Shown: positions 22,856 through 50,971 of the stretch, piece after piece
Position numbering within the stretch: position 1 is the first letter of the stretch
Layout of the letters: each line of letters opens with the position of its first letter
Assembly (NCBI GenBank): GCA_040221055.1
Contig: JAVJVN010000013.1
Location: 62,001-126,000 of the forward strand
DNA length: 64,000 bases
Direction of reading: 5' to 3'
From: Rhodothermales bacterium
GTDB lineage: Bacteria > Bacteroidota > Rhodothermia > Rhodothermales > UBA10348
Made by a program: the position numbers and the translations under genes
The notes under the pieces: generated by a model
What the model saw: only the letters and a program-made list of their open reading frames with translations
What the model was told of the DNA's origin: nothing
Database searches by the model: none

Positions 22856-22894
22856 AAAAAAGAAGAGGGGGGCGGCCTTGCGGCCGCCCCCCTC
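22856..22894 (-). terminator. Intrinsic terminator for the OmpA-like gene
   Basis: A perfect 13-bp stem (GAGGGGGGCGGCC at 22865-22877 with 22882-22894) closes a four-base loop, TTGC on the plus strand. On the minus strand it follows the stop at 22928 and is followed by TTCTTTTTT. It also sits 33 bases after the convergent roxA stop and could slow transcription from that side, though the plus-strand exit has no T run. Confidence 0.88.
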
Positions 22895-44140: not shown

Positions 44141-45265
44141 CTAATTGCCCTCGCGGATGGTCACGTCGCCGTCCCGGGTCTTGATCTTGATGAGGTTCGC
44201 ACCGCCACCCACGCTGCCCGTGGCATGGACCCGCCCACCGGAACTCCAGCGACCGCCGCGCTGGTCCACCTTGACGTCAAGGTCGAAGTCCGAGTCGATC
44301 CTGTAGTCGTCACTGTCGTCGTCCAGGATGATTTCGATGTCGAACTCCATGGACAATCCCTTGGGTACGGTCAGGGTGATGTCGCCCCCCATGGACTCCA
44401 GTTCCACGTGACGGTCGCCTGTCGTGCCGCCCACCATGTGGACTTCCACGTCGCCGCCCATGGTCTTGGCTTCAATCCAGCCATTGATCTCGCCGACCGT
44501 GATATCGCCGCCCATGGTGCTCGCCTTGACGAATTCCGCGGCCTTCCGGACCCGGATTTCACCGCCCATCGTGGATACGTCAGCGCCGAAGAGGGCTTCT
44601 TCAAGGACCACGTCGCCGCCCATGGTGTTCAGTCTGACCGGACGATTGCCCGATCCTGCTGCCCTGCCCGAGCTCACATTGTCATAGGTCACGTCGCCTC
44701 CCATGGTGGATCCGTCCACCGTGCCGGTGACGTTGCGCAGGTCGACATCGCCACCCATCGTGCTGACTTTGCCGTCCACGGAAGAATCGCGGAGCAGGAC
44801 GTCACCGCCCATGGTCTCCATGCTGACTTTGCCCTTGAGATTGCTGAGCGTCAGGTCGCCGCCCATGCTCGTGCCTTCCAGATCCCCTTCCACGCCGTCG
44901 ATAACAATGTCGCCGCCCGTGGTTTCCATGTCCAGATTGAAGCGGGAGGGTACCATGACCGTGACCTCGACCACCGCGCGTCCCCGGCGCATGCTGTTGT
45001 CGGTACGGATGGCTACCCCGCGGCTGGTCTCGTCAATGTCCACCTCGACGCTCTCGGCATCGCGGCCGGTGATCCGGACGTCCACGGAGACCTCATTCCG
45101 GTCCCAACCAGTAATGGAAATGTCCCCGCCCGTGCGGATGTCCATGGTCAGGAGTTCGCCGGGCTGAACGGTAAACGTACGGCTGATGTCCTGCGCCGAG
45201 GCAACCTGGAGGCTGCCCATCAGGATGGCGGCAAAAAGAAGTGCGTGATTGAAACGTGTACGCAT
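44141..45265 (-). CDS. Secreted DUF4097-type beta-solenoid with (S/T)MGGD repeats
   Basis: The product is 374 residues with a signal peptide (NHALLFAAILMGSLQVASAQ). The mature part holds nine (S/T)MGG(D/E)-x-hydrophobic units spaced 18-25 residues apart (for example TSMGGDLTLS, ETMGGDVLLR, STMGGDVDLR, NTMGGDVVLEE, STMGGDITVG, ESMGGDITLT). Two looser TGGDI units come before them. This spacing is a right-handed beta-solenoid, the DUF4097 adhesin-like fold. The C-terminus is acidic (ILDDDSDDYRIDSDFDLDV) and ends KIKTRDGDVTIREG. The role is unknown; family members are envelope or surface proteins. Repeat DNA is also quite conserved (CATGGGCGGCGA). Confidence 0.88.
   Translation of the reverse strand: MRTRFNHALLFAAILMGSLQVASAQDISRTFTVQPGELLTMDIRTGGDISITGWDRNEVSVDVRITGRDAESVEVDIDETSRGVAIRTDNSMRRGRAVVEVTVMVPSRFNLDMETTGGDIVIDGVEGDLEGTSMGGDLTLSNLKGKVSMETMGGDVLLRDSSVDGKVSTMGGDVDLRNVTGTVDGSTMGGDVTYDNVSSGRAAGSGNRPVRLNTMGGDVVLEEALFGADVSTMGGEIRVRKAAEFVKASTMGGDITVGEINGWIEAKTMGGDVEVHMVGGTTGDRHVELESMGGDITLTVPKGLSMEFDIEIILDDDSDDYRIDSDFDLDVKVDQRGGRWSSGGRVHATGSVGGGANLIKIKTRDGDVTIREGN
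44380..44960 (-). repeat. (S/T)MGGD coding repeat region
   Basis: Nine copies of the 12-base core GCCGCCCATGG or close variants (plus strand) recur every 54-75 bases, with unrelated sequence between. The spacing follows the solenoid coils, so this is a coding repeat. Confidence 0.8.
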
Positions 45266-45339: not shown

Positions 45340-46128
45340 TCAATCCCTTGTCATGACGCGCGGGAGCAGCCAACGGACCAGGCCGGGAAAGAAGCGGATG
45401 AGGGGCACCGCCCAGATCTCGGGTCCTCCAATATACACCTCGGCCCTCCGCTTTTCCATGGCGCGCATGGCCTTGCGGGCGAACACCTCCACCGGCATGG
45501 CATTCCGGTGCTGCGCATCCATTTCCCCGTGGGGCGTACCATCCCCCCTCACCGACTGTTCGCTGATCCATGTCCGGATGTATCCGGGACAGAGCAGCGT
45601 GATGTCCAGCGGCGAATTCGCGATTTCCGCCCGCAGCCCGTCGAACCAGCCATGGAGCGCGTGTTTCGACGCCGCATAGGTGGCCCGCCGGGGCGTGGAC
45701 ACCTTGCCCATGACCGAACTGATGGCCACCACATGCCCGTCCGGCCGCTCCAGGAGATGCTTCAGGCAGACATGCACGAGCGACAGCGCCCCGAAGAAAT
45801 TGATGTCCATGATGCGCCGCTCGACCGCCAGGTCCACCTCGCGGACCGCCGAACGTTGACCGATCCCCGCACTCAGCACCAGGGTGTCGAGGTGCCCGAA
45901 GCGGGCCAGGACCGCCTCGAATGCCGCCGCGTGGGTTTCCGTGTGGGTCACGTCGAGCGGCAGGATCATGTGCCGGTCCGGTTCGGGGAGGCCATCCACG
46001 AGGGCCCGGAGCCGGTCGATGCGCCGCGCCGATACCACCACATGGGCACCGCGTGCCGCGAAGGATTTTGCCAGCTCGGCCCCGATGCCCGAAGAGGCCC
46101 CGGTTATCCAGACGACGCGATCCGTCAT
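45340..46128 (-). CDS. Short-chain dehydrogenase/reductase (SDR) with C-terminal hydrophobic tail
   Basis: The product is 262 residues. It has VVWITGASSGIGAELAKSFA, the NNAG position changed to LSAG (LVLSAGIGQRS), and the catalytic Ser and YxxxK (AISSVMGKVS, YAASKHALHG). A C-terminal segment (WAVPLIRFFPGLVRWLLPRV) is hydrophobic and amphipathic, as in the Lin1/DHRS7-like SDRs that touch membranes. The substrate is unknown. Its start overlaps the stop of the upstream secreted-protein gene (ATGA), so it is the last gene of the exporter operon. Confidence 0.88.
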   Translation of the reverse strand: MTDRVVWITGASSGIGAELAKSFAARGAHVVVSARRIDRLRALVDGLPEPDRHMILPLDVTHTETHAAAFEAVLARFGHLDTLVLSAGIGQRSAVREVDLAVERRIMDINFFGALSLVHVCLKHLLERPDGHVVAISSVMGKVSTPRRATYAASKHALHGWFDGLRAEIANSPLDITLLCPGYIRTWISEQSVRGDGTPHGEMDAQHRNAMPVEVFARKAMRAMEKRRAEVYIGGPEIWAVPLIRFFPGLVRWLLPRVMTRD

Positions 46129-46934
46129 TGGACGCTGACGCGGATGCGTGCTTCACCGGCATTGCCGGTCCCGTTCTGTGTGGCGACCACATGGATTTCG
46201 TAGCGCCCGGCCTCCAGACCCTGGAAGTCGGACATATACAGGCTGCGCGTCCCCGCCGGAAGCAACGGGCGCGTGGCTACGGGCTGCCCGTCCCGGTAGA
46301 CAGTGGCCTGGATCGTGAAGTCGCCGCTGTCCCACAGTCCACCGGGCTCCGTCGGACAGCCACACAGCATTTCCATCAGCGCCCGGACCGTAAACGGGGT
46401 TCCCTGCGGCACGGGTTGTTCGGAACGCGGTTCCTGGATCTTGACGGTGAGCCCGGTCAGTTCCACCAGAAAGCCGTCGCCCTCGACATGGTGCCCGGGG
46501 ATCAGTAATACGCGCTTGGTCGCCTGCGTCATGCCATCCGGATCCCCGAGGGGGCCGATGGCCGTGATGTCCACCCAGGTCGGTGCGTCCAGCGCTAGCG
46601 TCGTGCGGAAGGCCGCCGCATCGGGCGTGTCGAAGGGATCCGTGCCCCGGACCCTGGGCTTGCGCATGAGGCTGTCGGTGTCCCCCGTGCCGCCCGTCTG
46701 GACGCCGTCCGCCAGCACGCTGCCGTCCCGGACCCGGCGGATGACCACGCGTACCCCACCGGCACCGGAGCCGATGATTTTCGCGTCATGGGAGACGGCG
46801 CGGACGATTATCCGTGTTTCGGTTGCCTGCGCGTGCAGATTGCCGGGCAGCAGGCTGCCGGACAGGAACAGGGACAAAAAAAGAACGCCGACAACTCGGG
46901 TTGTCGGCGTTCTCAGAGCGGGCAGTGGGGTCAT
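46125..46934 (-). CDS. Secreted protein of unknown function; terminator hairpin inside its 5' codons
   Basis: The start at 46934 gives MTPLPALRTPTTRVVGVLFL, a signal peptide ending near LHAQ; 269 residues. The mature part is beta-rich with two Cys in a CGC pair (EMLCGCPTEPG) and ends RYEIHVVATQNGTGNAG, like a carrier or Ig-type domain. I recognise no family. A perfect 14-bp hairpin with seven T residues (46876-46913 on the minus strand) lies within codons about 8-20 and encodes part of the signal peptide (RTPTTRVVGVLFL). Full-length expression therefore needs read-through or ribosome-coupled antitermination. The TTG at the LSLF position after the hairpin is a poor alternative start without positive charges. 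Confidence 0.75.
   Translation of the reverse strand: MTPLPALRTPTTRVVGVLFLSLFLSGSLLPGNLHAQATETRIIVRAVSHDAKIIGSGAGGVRVVIRRVRDGSVLADGVQTGGTGDTDSLMRKPRVRGTDPFDTPDAAAFRTTLALDAPTWVDITAIGPLGDPDGMTQATKRVLLIPGHHVEGDGFLVELTGLTVKIQEPRSEQPVPQGTPFTVRALMEMLCGCPTEPGGLWDSGDFTIQATVYRDGQPVATRPLLPAGTRSLYMSDFQGLEAGRYEIHVVATQNGTGNAGEARIRVSVQ
46876..46913 (-). terminator. Canonical intrinsic terminator inside coding sequence
   Basis: The arms 46882-46895 (AGAACGCCGACAAC) and 46900-46913 are perfectly complementary, with a four-base loop, and seven T residues on the minus strand (46882-46876) complete the element. It lies 27 bases after the stop of the 87-aa gene (46940), the expected place for that operon's terminator, yet 21 bases into the next gene. 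See findings. Confidence 0.85.
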
Positions 46935-46939
46935 GAGGG

Positions 46940-47203
46940 TCAGGCGTGAATCCGTTGTCTGAACATGACGGGTACGAGGCCTTTGTCGGGAATTCCGATC
47001 TGGACCAGCTCCCAACCGGGATCGTAGCCGTCAATCATGGCCCGGAGCCGTTCAATCCGATGGAAGGACGAATCTCCGCCATGATGCCAATCAAATGCTT
47101 CTACCCGGTAGTTGGTAAGGCGTTTCTCCCCGTTCACCGTAACCAGGACTTCAACCGTGTTCTCGGATCCCATGTCGGGGACCTGGATGCAGATTTCCCT
47201 CAT
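46940..47203 (-). CDS. Small conserved-looking cytosolic protein of unknown function
   Basis: The product is 87 residues, soluble, no signal, starting MREICIQVPDMGSENTVEVL. It has a compact alpha/beta look with strand (VEVLVTVNGEKRLTNYRVEA) and a conserved His/Trp patch (FDWHHGGDSSFHRIERLRAM). I recognise no family. It lies 23 bases downstream of the LolD-type ATPase on the same strand, so it is in the sigma-54 exporter operon. Its own stop is followed by the terminator hairpin. Confidence 0.75.
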   Translation of the reverse strand: MREICIQVPDMGSENTVEVLVTVNGEKRLTNYRVEAFDWHHGGDSSFHRIERLRAMIDGYDPGWELVQIGIPDKGLVPVMFRQRIHA

Positions 47204-47226: not shown

Positions 47227-47928
47227 TCAGTTGCCTTGATGGATATAGTGGCTCTGGATGAAGTTCTCGGTCACCACGTGACCGTCGAACAGGTGGATGA
47301 CGCGCTGGCTGTATTCGGCATCGGCCGGGGAGTGGGTGACCATGGCAATCGTCGTACCGGCTTCGTTCAGCTGGGTCAACAGGTTCATGACCTCCTCGCC
47401 GTGCGTGGAGTCCAGGTTACCCGTGGGCTCATCCGCCAGGATGAGTTTGGGCCCCGCCACAACGGCGCGGGCAATGGCCACGCGCTGCTGCTGACCACCG
47501 GAAAGCTGCTGCGGGAAGTGGCCTTGCCGGTGCGTGATCTGCACCGAATCGAGTGCCGCCTGGACCCGCTCTTTACGCTCGTCGCTCGGCATGCCGAGGT
47601 ACAGCAGCGGCAGTTCCACGTTTTCGTGGACCGTGAGCTCATCAATCAGGTTGAAGCTCTGGAAGACGAATCCGATGTTGCCCTTGCGGAGCTGGGCCCG
47701 CTGGCGTTCGCTCAGGTTCGAGATTTCCGTATCCAGGAACCAGTATTCACCGGCCGTCGGGTTGTCGAGCAGGCCCATGATGTTCAGCAGGGTGGACTTG
47801 CCACAGCCGGACGGTCCCATGATGGACACGAACTCGCCTTCCTTGATTTCCAGGTTGACGTTGTTGAGGGCGGTCGTTTCGACTTCCTCGGTGATGTACG
47901 CCTTCTTGAGGTTTTTTGTCTTGATCAT
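47227..47928 (-). CDS. ABC transporter ATPase, LolD/MacB type (exporter operon)
   Basis: The product is 233 residues. It has Walker A MGPSGCGKSTLLNIMG, Q-loop FVFQSFNLIDELT, signature PQQLSGGQQQRVAIARA, Walker B KLILADEPTGNLDSTHGEE and switch His VTHSPADAEY. This is the MacB/YknY/LolD export group. It is 8 bases downstream of the HlyD-type adaptor gene, but no FtsX/MacB permease is visible on either strand in the window. It resembles the second ATPase at 39002-39703 closely, so the two may share a permease encoded elsewhere. Confidence 0.93.
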   Translation of the reverse strand: MIKTKNLKKAYITEEVETTALNNVNLEIKEGEFVSIMGPSGCGKSTLLNIMGLLDNPTAGEYWFLDTEISNLSERQRAQLRKGNIGFVFQSFNLIDELTVHENVELPLLYLGMPSDERKERVQAALDSVQITHRQGHFPQQLSGGQQQRVAIARAVVAGPKLILADEPTGNLDSTHGEEVMNLLTQLNEAGTTIAMVTHSPADAEYSQRVIHLFDGHVVTENFIQSHYIHQGN

Positions 47929-47936
47929 GGTGTTTG

Positions 47937-49331
47937 TCAGTTGAATACCAGGCGGTCTGCCTCGTTGAACGTTTCGTAGGAGGAAGTGACGACTTGCTGG
48001 CCGGGCTCGAGTCCCTCGACCACCTCGTACACTTCGAGATTCTTGCGGCTGAGACGGATGGGCTGCTTGACGGCAAATTCCCCCGACTCATCAAGGACGT
48101 AGATCCAGTTGCCCCCCGTGGACTGGAAGAACCCACCGAGCGGCACGACCACGGCTTCCGTGGGATCACTCATTTCAAGCCGGGCGCGAACCGTTTGGCC
48201 CCGACGGATGGCATCCGGCTCTTCGCCCACGAAGTGCAGGTCCACTTCGAAGCGGCCCTGCTGGACCTGCGGGTAGACCCGGTGGACTTCCATTTCGTAT
48301 TCCTGGCCGGCAATGGGCAGCGTGACGGCCTTCTGGCCCCGCATGACGCGGCTGATGTGGAACTCGTCCACCTGCGCACGGACCATGACGCCGTCCATGA
48401 GGTCCACCTGTCCGAACCGGTAGCCGGTGCTCACGATCTCACCCAACTGGGCATTGAGCTGGGACAGCCGGCCGTCCGCGGGCGCCCGGATGACCAGGTT
48501 CTCCAGGCGACTGTTGATGACCTGGAAATTCTGGTCCATGCGGGCGACGGCATCGGCCATCTGTTCGAGCTGCTGGGCCTGGCGCAGGGAATCCGTACGA
48601 TAGGAACGCTGCGTCAAATCCATCCGGCTCAGGTAGTACTCGTATTCGTCCTTGATGCGCAGGTAGTCCTGTTCGGCCATCAATTCCTTGTCATACAGCT
48701 GCTTGGCCCGGGCGTGCTCGCGCTCCAGCCGCCGGATGTTGTACTGCATGTCCGTCAGCTGCTGCCGCGTGCTGAGGTTGCTCTGCTCCACCTGGAACCG
48801 GGTCTGTTCCAGACGATTGATCTGCTCAATCCGGGACGTTTCGGTCTGGAGGAGGCTCAGTTGCAGCCCACTGTTGGACAGGCGCAGGATGGGGTCGCCT
48901 TCCTGCAGGATGGCGCCTTCCTGGACGAAGACCTCTTCGACCCGTCCGCCTTCGATGGCGTCCAGGAAGAACCAGTTCCGCGGCAGGACATTGCCTGTAA
49001 TGGGGATGTTCTCCTGGAACGGGGCGAACCGCACTTCACTGATGGTGACGCGGTCGCGGTCCACGTTCAGGCGTCGACCGCCACTCGTGGAGGAAATACC
49101 CCAGGCAATCAGGGCCAGGAACGCAATGGCTCCCACGATCATCCCAATCCGGCGCGTCGTCCAGAATTTCCTGGCAATCTTCTTGTCCATGCCCTGTCCG
49201 CCTCCGTAACTGTCTCCGGAAGACGAATCGCCCTGGCCGCCATTGCCACGGGGCGCCAGAATGGAGGCTGCCGTCGGTTTCCTGGGCGGCTCCTGGGGCA
49301 GATTTTTTTCGGTAGTTGTGTCCATGCTCAT
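47937..49331 (-). CDS. HlyD/RND-type periplasmic adaptor of ABC exporter
   Basis: The product is 464 residues from 49331 (49325 also possible). A low-complexity 45-residue N-terminus precedes an internal Met (MDKKIARKFWTTRRIG at 49190) that starts like family members, so translation may begin there. One membrane helix (GMIVGAIAFLALIAWGI) anchors it. Then come a lipoyl half-motif (IEGGRVEEVFVQEGAILQEG), a long coiled-coil hairpin (about residues 150-285), the second lipoyl half (ENLVIRAPADGRLSQLNAQL) and beta-barrel domains ending DRLVFN. The gene leads the operon and has the sigma-54 promoter 13-28 bases upstream of its start, with a predicted transcription start only about two bases before the ATG. 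Confidence 0.9.
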   Translation of the reverse strand: MSMDTTTEKNLPQEPPRKPTAASILAPRGNGGQGDSSSGDSYGGGQGMDKKIARKFWTTRRIGMIVGAIAFLALIAWGISSTSGGRRLNVDRDRVTISEVRFAPFQENIPITGNVLPRNWFFLDAIEGGRVEEVFVQEGAILQEGDPILRLSNSGLQLSLLQTETSRIEQINRLEQTRFQVEQSNLSTRQQLTDMQYNIRRLEREHARAKQLYDKELMAEQDYLRIKDEYEYYLSRMDLTQRSYRTDSLRQAQQLEQMADAVARMDQNFQVINSRLENLVIRAPADGRLSQLNAQLGEIVSTGYRFGQVDLMDGVMVRAQVDEFHISRVMRGQKAVTLPIAGQEYEMEVHRVYPQVQQGRFEVDLHFVGEEPDAIRRGQTVRARLEMSDPTEAVVVPLGGFFQSTGGNWIYVLDESGEFAVKQPIRLSRKNLEVYEVVEGLEPGQQVVTSSYETFNEADRLVFN

Positions 49332-49343
49332 GAAAAATCGTTT

Positions 49344-49359
49344 TGCAAGGGTCGTGCCA
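49344..49359 (-). promoter_or_regulatory. Sigma-54 promoter (-24/-12), full consensus
   Basis: On the minus strand the sequence reads TGGCACG, four bases (ACCC), TTGCA, that is -24 element at 49353-49359 and -12 element at 49344-49348. This matches the sigma-54 consensus TGGCACG-N4-TTGCW at every fixed position. It points at the HlyD-LolD operon. Assuming the usual 12-base distance from the GC, transcription starts near 49333, giving an almost leaderless mRNA for the start at 49331 or a leader of about 8 bases for 49325. Confidence 0.9.
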
Positions 49360-49415
49360 CAGCACAAATAAGCCGGGCAGGCCGTCCACATGATCGAAGA
49401 TATGTCCGGTCTTGA

Positions 49416-49504
49416 AACACCAACTGTACGATATTGAACACTTCTACCGAAGGGCTGTCCGCTTTTGGAACACAATTTCCATGCGGTACGATAGTTGGAG
49501 TGTT
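49416..49504. promoter_or_regulatory. Imperfect inverted repeat, possible enhancer sites for the NtrC-family regulator
   Basis: AACACCAACT at 49416-49425 is matched in reverse by AGTTGGAGTGTT at 49493-49504, each flanked on the inner side by GTACGATA (direct). This lies 57-160 bases upstream of the sigma-54 -24 element, the normal place for activator sites. The pairing is imperfect and the spacing is large, so binding is only suggested. Confidence 0.4.
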
Positions 49505-49585
49505 TTGCATCGTAAAGGGTTGGCAATGTTGTCCGTACTCCACGGAAGTGCCCGATCTTTGTTGCACCATTGACGATTTGAGGAT

Positions 49586-50971
49586 ATGCAGGAATCGCCG
49601 GATCTCGGACGGATACTGGTTGTGGATGACGACGCGGACGTGCTCCAGGCGGCGCGACTGCTGCTGCGCAAACACGCCGAACACGTGCACACGGAAAAGC
49701 GGCCGGAACACATTCCGGCCCTGTTGCAGAACGACAACTACGACGTCATCCTGCTGGACATGAACTTCACCCGGGACGTGTCCAGCGGGCGGGAAGGCTT
49801 CTACTGGCTGGACCGCATCCGGGAAATCAATCCATCGGCCGTGGTCGTTCTGATCACGGCGTTCGGAGACGTGGAAATGGCGGTGAATGCCATCAAGGCG
49901 GGGGCCACCGACTTTGTGCTCAAACCCTGGCAGAACGAGAAATTGATTGCCACGCTGACTTCGGCGCTCCGGCTGAGTTCGTCCCGTCAGGAAGCCAACG
50001 CCCTGCGCGAACAGTCCCGGATGCTGTCGGATGACCTGGGAAACCGGTATCGCGACTTCATCGGCAAGTCCCCGGCCATGCGCAACGTGTTCGTGCAGAT
50101 CGACAAGGTGGCCGGAACCGACGCCAACGTCCTCATCCTGGGCGAGAACGGGACGGGCAAGGAACTGGTGGCCCGGGCCCTGCACCGCCAGTCCAAACGC
50201 GCCAACGAGGTCTTCGTGAGCGTCGACATGGGCGCCATCACGGAAACCCTGTTCGAAAGTGAGTTGTTCGGCCACCGCAAGGGCGCATTCACCGATGCCC
50301 GCGAGGACCGTCCTGGCCGGTTCGAAATGGCATCCGGAGGCACGCTCTTCCTGGACGAAATCGGCAACCTGCCGTTGCCGTTGCAATCGAAGCTCATGAC
50401 CGTACTGCAGCAGCGTCAGGTGACCCGCGTGGGGGACAATCGTCCCCACAGCGTGGATGTCCGGCTCATCTGCGCCACGAACGAACCCATCCACGAACGG
50501 GTACGGGAGGGTGCGTTCCGGCAGGACCTGCTCTACCGGATCAATACCGTGGAAATCCGTCTGCCGGCCCTGCGGGAGCGCCTGGAGGACATTCCGCTCC
50601 TCGTGGAGCATTTCCTGGAGATGTTCGCGCGCAAGTACAACCAGTCGGTGACGGGCATGAGCGACGGTGCGCTCCGCAAGTTGGAGTCCTGGTCCTGGCC
50701 GGGCAACGTCCGGGAACTGGAGCACATGGTGGAGCGGGCGGTCATCATGACCGATTCGACCACGCTGCAACCCGAAGATTTCCTGTTCACGTCGGCCCAC
50801 GACATGGGCGCGGACGGACTCCTGTTCGACTCGTTCAACCTGGAGGATGTGGAAAAAACCGTGGTCCGGAAAGCCCTGGACAAGCACGCAGGCAACATCT
50901 CGAAGGCGGCGGACGAACTGGGATTGACCCGGGCGTCCCTGTACCGCCGTCTTGAGAAATACGGACTCTGA
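49586..50971 (+). CDS. NtrC-family sigma-54-dependent response regulator
   Basis: The product is 461 residues. A receiver domain (VVDDDADVLQAARLLLRK; phosphoacceptor Asp in VILLDMNF; Lys in VLKPW) is followed by an AAA+ domain with Walker A GENGTGKELVARAL, Walker B FLDEIGNLPL and the sigma-54 contact loop HRKGAFTDAREDR, that is GAFTDA instead of GAFTGA. A C-terminal Fis-type helix-turn-helix (ISKAADELGLTRASLYRRLE) completes it. It should activate sigma-54 promoters, most obviously the one 226 bases away in the divergent operon. The kinase gene follows after two bases. The GAFTDA form is common in Bacteroidota regulators as far as I recall. Confidence 0.95.
   Translation: MQESPDLGRILVVDDDADVLQAARLLLRKHAEHVHTEKRPEHIPALLQNDNYDVILLDMNFTRDVSSGREGFYWLDRIREINPSAVVVLITAFGDVEMAVNAIKAGATDFVLKPWQNEKLIATLTSALRLSSSRQEANALREQSRMLSDDLGNRYRDFIGKSPAMRNVFVQIDKVAGTDANVLILGENGTGKELVARALHRQSKRANEVFVSVDMGAITETLFESELFGHRKGAFTDAREDRPGRFEMASGGTLFLDEIGNLPLPLQSKLMTVLQQRQVTRVGDNRPHSVDVRLICATNEPIHERVREGAFRQDLLYRINTVEIRLPALRERLEDIPLLVEHFLEMFARKYNQSVTGMSDGALRKLESWSWPGNVRELEHMVERAVIMTDSTTLQPEDFLFTSAHDMGADGLLFDSFNLEDVEKTVVRKALDKHAGNISKAADELGLTRASLYRRLEKYGL

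Follow-up and report, generated by a model that had tools for sequence, protein, structure and literature searches.

The window, as we call the whole 64,000-nucleotide stretch of DNA analysed here, carries on its minus strand an efflux operon that ends in an 87-aa gene, followed by genes for a secreted protein, an SDR oxidoreductase and a DUF4097 protein (Table 1). The stop codon of the 87-aa gene and ATG 46934 of the secreted-protein gene are separated by 5 nt, and no ribosome-binding site is evident ahead of this ATG. Within the signal-peptide codons that follow lies a hairpin with the form of an intrinsic terminator. Divergent from the efflux operon in the genus is a sigma-54 response regulator (49586-50971).

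Table 1. Features of the locus, with positions in the window.
Feature	Position	Strand	Remarks
HlyD-type membrane-fusion protein	47937..49526	minus	Coordinates of the longest ORF; true start probably around 49286-49331
ABC transporter ATP-binding protein	47227..47928	minus	
87-aa gene	46940..47203	minus	Closes the ancestral efflux operon; ends in TGA
Secreted-protein gene	46125..46934	minus	Encodes 269 aa, a signal peptide followed by a tandem beta-sandwich; inserted at this point in the genus
Terminator hairpin (predicted)	46914-46881	minus	15-bp stem, CCGA loop; codons 7-18 of the secreted protein
U-tract, seven T	46882-46876	minus	Inside codons CTT TTT TTG (Leu-Phe-Leu)
Rival in-frame TTG start	46877..46875	minus	Behind the stem, where the T-run ends
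SDR oxidoreductase	45340..46128	minus	Overlaps the secreted-protein stop here (ATGA); directly behind the terminator in the family
DUF4097 (toastrack) protein	44141..45265	minus	Conserved downstream neighbour

The minus-strand letters of the hairpin read GAGAACGCCGACAAC-CCGA-GTTGTCGGCGTTCTT, followed by TTTTT, with the stem arms at 46914-46900 and 46895-46881 and the loop at 46899-46896. The initial annotation had described a 14-bp stem with a four-base loop and seven T residues on the minus strand, and we confirm this structure, which has 14 Watson-Crick pairs, or 15 bp with an outer G-U pair. The distances that it gave were right within 1-2 bases, with the stem beginning 25-26 nt past the 87-aa stop, where 27 had been claimed, and 20-21 nt past ATG 46934, where 21 had been claimed. 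The stem-loop (15 bp, -25 kcal/mol) is stable beyond chance: the 86 nt at 46860-46945 fold as RNA with -26.5 kcal/mol compared to -13.5 on average for shuffled sequences (z = -5.1), a value equalled by 0 of 200 shuffles. The unbroken run of seven T stands right behind the stem, and the hairpin ranks first among terminator-like sites in its 6-kb neighbourhood. A repeat or uptake signal as the source of the stem sequence was ruled out, as the stem arm has no second exact copy in the window.

Hairpins of -20 kcal/mol or lower with a T-rich tail occur 13 times in a background sample of 677 kb, about a fifth of this genome, in which ORFs were taken from a simple codon-usage gene caller. Twelve of them lie outside sense genes, several at 22-50 nt past a stop codon, and the hairpin at 46914-46881 is the only one within a sense ORF, provided that ATG 46934 is the start. 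A very strong terminator at 22865-22894 (TTCTTTTT, -33.5 kcal/mol), 33 nt past a minus-strand gene, is an ordinary intergenic case.

The gene order in the rest of the family is HlyD-ABC-87aa-SDR-DUF4097, without the secreted-protein gene, and a strong hairpin stands behind the 87-aa stop in nine of 11 family genomes outside the genus. In eight of these (G006, G007, G008, G011, G013, G015, G017 and G020), the hairpin beats 100 of 100 shuffles. The hairpin search took perfect stems only; the ninth, G014, has a single mismatch in a hairpin that is evident from the sequence, and was added by inspection. Behind the 87-aa stop of G004 and G024 there is no strong hairpin, and in three genomes of genus g10 the operon differs. 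The family stem starts 21-34 nt past the 87-aa stop in eight genomes and 74 nt past it in G008; the stem described here, at 25 nt, is at the same place as the family's operon-end terminator. Because both the synteny and the distance from the 87-aa stop match, the hairpin occupies the family's operon-terminator position, and the comparison of these sequences makes its descent from the terminator of the HlyD-ABC-87aa operon well supported.

The secreted-protein gene lies directly behind the 87-aa gene in this genus and in G009. It is followed next by the SDR gene here and in G009, and G001, G002 and G003 lack an SDR gene there and continue to DUF4097. No terminator remains at the G009 locus, where the 87-aa gene has decayed; at L060 (G009:C175, 3594-3846), stops and a frameshift interrupt this gene, with the secreted-protein gene and SDR behind it. 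A tree of ABC and HlyD proteins groups the four genus members together but does not place G009; it fits one insertion as well as two, and a single origin of the inserted gene is not upheld.

The genus sample consists of four genomes, this one and the congeners G001, G002 and G003, and includes at least one MAG (the G002 contig matches JAJCYR010000059.1). All four have a hairpin at the equivalent place, with different stem sequences. The stem arms are GGGAAAAGCGCTGA..TCAGCGCTTTTCTC in G001, GGAAGGCGCTG..CAGCGCTTTTT in G002 and GGAAAGCGCTG..CAGCGCTTTCC in G003. The initial annotation had proposed looking for compensating changes in related genomes, which could be followed among these three: all 11 core pairs are paired in every genome, and the varying pairs comprise one A-U/G-U/G-C (a two-sided change), one A-U/G-U and one G-C/G-U, the others being invariant. 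The same comparison failed for this genome, whose stem is wholly different and impossible to align base for base. Codon choice was addressed with a synonymous null, in which the amino acids were fixed and codons drawn by usage for 5000 recodings each. The observed terminator score was reached or exceeded in 77/5000 recodings for this genome and reached in 9/5000, 47/5000 and 13/5000 for the three congeners, the congener values not being independent because of shared descent. Pairing is stronger than synonymous codons usually give in all four genus members.

The T-runs of the congeners are weaker, with 5/8 T in G001 and 4/8, interrupted, in G002 and G003, so that the unbroken run of this genome is only partly matched there. 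Because of these interrupted T-runs and the weak stem of G002, termination in G002 and G003 is doubtful. It is conceivable that the hairpin is a fading relic, derived from a terminator but no longer terminating or of consequence, and persisting through slow divergence. The broken T-runs and weaker stems of G002 and G003 and the missing hairpin of G009 would fit this. However, this genome has a near-perfect stem with seven T, its stem is still paired although wholly unlike those of the congeners, and synonymous codons are biased towards pairing in 4/4 genus members. We therefore consider a relic unlikely, and favour a hairpin retained since the insertion.

Whether the hairpin is translated depends on the start codon. 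Within the signal-peptide region of the congeners, the upstream ATG is the only in-frame ATG, GTG or TTG and none follows the hairpin; translation of the gene there therefore has to pass through the hairpin. In this genome, ATG 46934 is the more likely start on comparative grounds, because the congeners fix the same start and because a signal peptide begun at TTG 46877 would be shortened and without charge. The main rival for this genome is that the secreted-protein gene begins at this TTG, which would make the hairpin an ordinary intergenic terminator with no dual coding here. An in-frame TTG does exist at that position and was the start chosen by the simple codon-usage gene caller, a choice that reflects the atypical codons of the stem, and family terminators do sit between genes. 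We nevertheless judge this reading quite improbable, since the congeners offer only the upstream ATG and their genes cross the hairpin, the N-terminus from ATG 46934 is MTPLP compared to MTYRP in G002, and initiation at TTG would place the initiation region inside the stem, in addition to truncating the signal peptide and removing its charge. The translated segment thus overlaps the terminator under the sole start of three congeners and under the likely ATG 46934 here. That one segment would serve both as a terminator-like element and as signal-peptide code, as the initial annotation had claimed, is well supported by the family's operon-terminator position and by the hairpin in 4/4 genus members.

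Homologues of the secreted protein outside the locus, in Rhodothermales and other phyla, lack a comparable hairpin in the signal-peptide region among those that could be scored, and therefore the hairpin belongs to the locus and not to the protein. The same observation bears on a role in RNA other than termination, in which the hairpin would protect the 3′ end of the processed efflux mRNA or slow the ribosome during signal-peptide targeting. G002 and G003 indeed conserve the pairing better than they do the T-run, yet position and form match the family's intergenic terminators and targeting of the homologous proteins elsewhere does not need a hairpin, which leaves such a role with little probability.

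The whole is best explained, with a probability of about two in three, by an inherited operon terminator that is now dual-coding and acts as a partial, translation-dependent attenuator. The comparison shows the ancestry by position, retained pairing and synteny, and we infer residual termination and its relief by translation. In the genus ancestor, the gene for the secreted beta-sandwich protein would have come between the HlyD-ABC-87aa operon and SDR, and its start codon would have fallen ahead of the terminator, such that the stem and T-run came to encode the n- and h-regions of the signal peptide. The hairpin would have been retained since then, the stem sequence turning over while the pairing was kept; against this weighs that the three congener hairpins share descent and that most of their core pairs are invariant. 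In this genome, termination likely continues at 46882-46876, judging from the stem and its T-run, and a share of transcripts is probably still stopped after the 87-aa gene. A ribosome leaving the 87-aa gene may re-initiate at the ATG 5 nt on and open the stem, which would favour readthrough and yield transcripts for the secreted protein, SDR and perhaps DUF4097. The hairpin would thereby keep expression of the distal genes lower and dependent on translation.

As an alternative to ribosome-assisted readthrough, the initial annotation had suggested a promoter within the 87-aa gene, which would not bypass the hairpin. Any mRNA with ATG 46934 includes it, whether transcribed from an upstream promoter or from one inside the 87-aa gene, and readthrough must therefore be partial or ribosome-assisted. 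A promoter scan gave a number of sites no higher than chance.

The initial annotation further proposed an on/off switch set by translation, which the analysis leaves unsupported. In such a switch, a signal would alter translation of the 87-aa gene, and the hairpin would melt or form in response. The 5-nt spacing of stop and start in this genome would suit it, and a ribosome-melted terminator does work as a switch in Streptococcus gallolyticus pil1 (PMC3894217). However, the corresponding gaps in the congeners are 14, 17 and 137 nt, so tight translational coupling is not conserved, and Rfam offered no plausible element, its single microRNA match being implausible and far away. The minimum-energy structure is also without an antiterminator fold; a candidate, CCGACAA in the 87-aa gene, could pair with the 3′ arm, but this structure retains the terminator. 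Neither an alternative antiterminator fold nor a stalling signal, one of which many but not all translation-controlled attenuators have, was found at the site, which is accordingly not classed as a classical attenuator. A regulated switch is consequently very unlikely, and a partial attenuator sensitive to translation explains the observations more economically. At the G001 locus (L057, G001:C7, 11753-11931), the 87-aa gene has an internal deletion and a frameshift, with the secreted-protein gene and hairpin intact; the deletion may be real or an assembly fault.

In E. coli frdD-ampC, the terminator of the upstream operon is the attenuator of the next gene and is located in the leader, ahead of the start codon. 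The arrangement proposed here is the same, except that the hairpin lies inside the coding sequence and not in a leader. In S. gallolyticus pil1/pil3, a translating ribosome melts the terminator stem and allows downstream transcription, as is established for pil1 and proposed here. There, however, translation covers a phase-variable leader peptide; here it covers a signal peptide that belongs to a full structural protein and lacks repeats (PMC3894217). The E. coli tR2 constructs are also similar, with a terminator that follows the stop of another operon gene and stands about 30 bp past a start codon; these are artificial, while this locus is natural, inherited and conserved with pairing changes (PMC4824070). 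A terminator placed up to 100 bp into an ORF retains most of its efficiency in E. coli, and full efficiency is reached at distances above about 27 nt downstream of a stop (PMC4824070; also reviewed in PMC7858274). By analogy with these figures, efficient termination is expected at the site except when a ribosome immediately re-initiates on ATG 46934. A ribosome-rescue burden from transcripts without a stop codon was seen with a similar construct (PMC4824070), and transcripts ending at the hairpin, with no stop codon in the secreted-protein frame, would be expected to burden ribosome rescue here. Finally, some E. coli 3′ ends that fall within coding sequences have intrinsic-terminator features; those ends were mapped by RNA sequencing, while this site is known from sequence, together with its evolutionary origin (PMC7815308).

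At this locus a terminator has naturally become protein code with its hairpin retained, and the relatives represent the states before and after the change; a literature search of partial coverage found no precedent for a terminator turned into a signal peptide. The case suggests that secretion signals can originate from the T-runs of terminators, as a T-run encodes Phe and Leu and a GC-rich stem a basic or neutral lead-in. Several of the nine family terminators read, in one frame, as charged and then hydrophobic, for example KAVAAKAATAFSFWAFV and RAVAAIAATALFFLP, an observation uncontrolled against random sequence. It is a tentative idea, more doubtful than probable, that intrinsic terminators are ready-made signal-peptide genes, through which a gene arriving beyond a terminator could acquire secretion signal and attenuator in a single step; if true, this locus would be a worked example. 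It also offers a test of the extent of transcription-translation coupling in Rhodothermia-like bacteria. Terminator predictors that discard in-gene sites and gene callers that avoid terminators would both misread such loci.

The DUF4097 protein is weakly similar to LiaG/LiaX (envelope stress), and its gene adjoins the efflux operon throughout the family. The 269-aa secreted protein has no match to a Pfam or NCBIfam family. Its structure model (mean pLDDT 80.7) shows beta-sandwich domains after 34 disordered residues, with only loose Ig/FnIII-like structural matches. The secreted-protein family shares an invariant MLCGCP motif and ranges over Rhodothermia, Gemmatimonadota (with Longimicrobiales) and an Acidobacteria MAG, and more distantly to sphingomonad plasmids.
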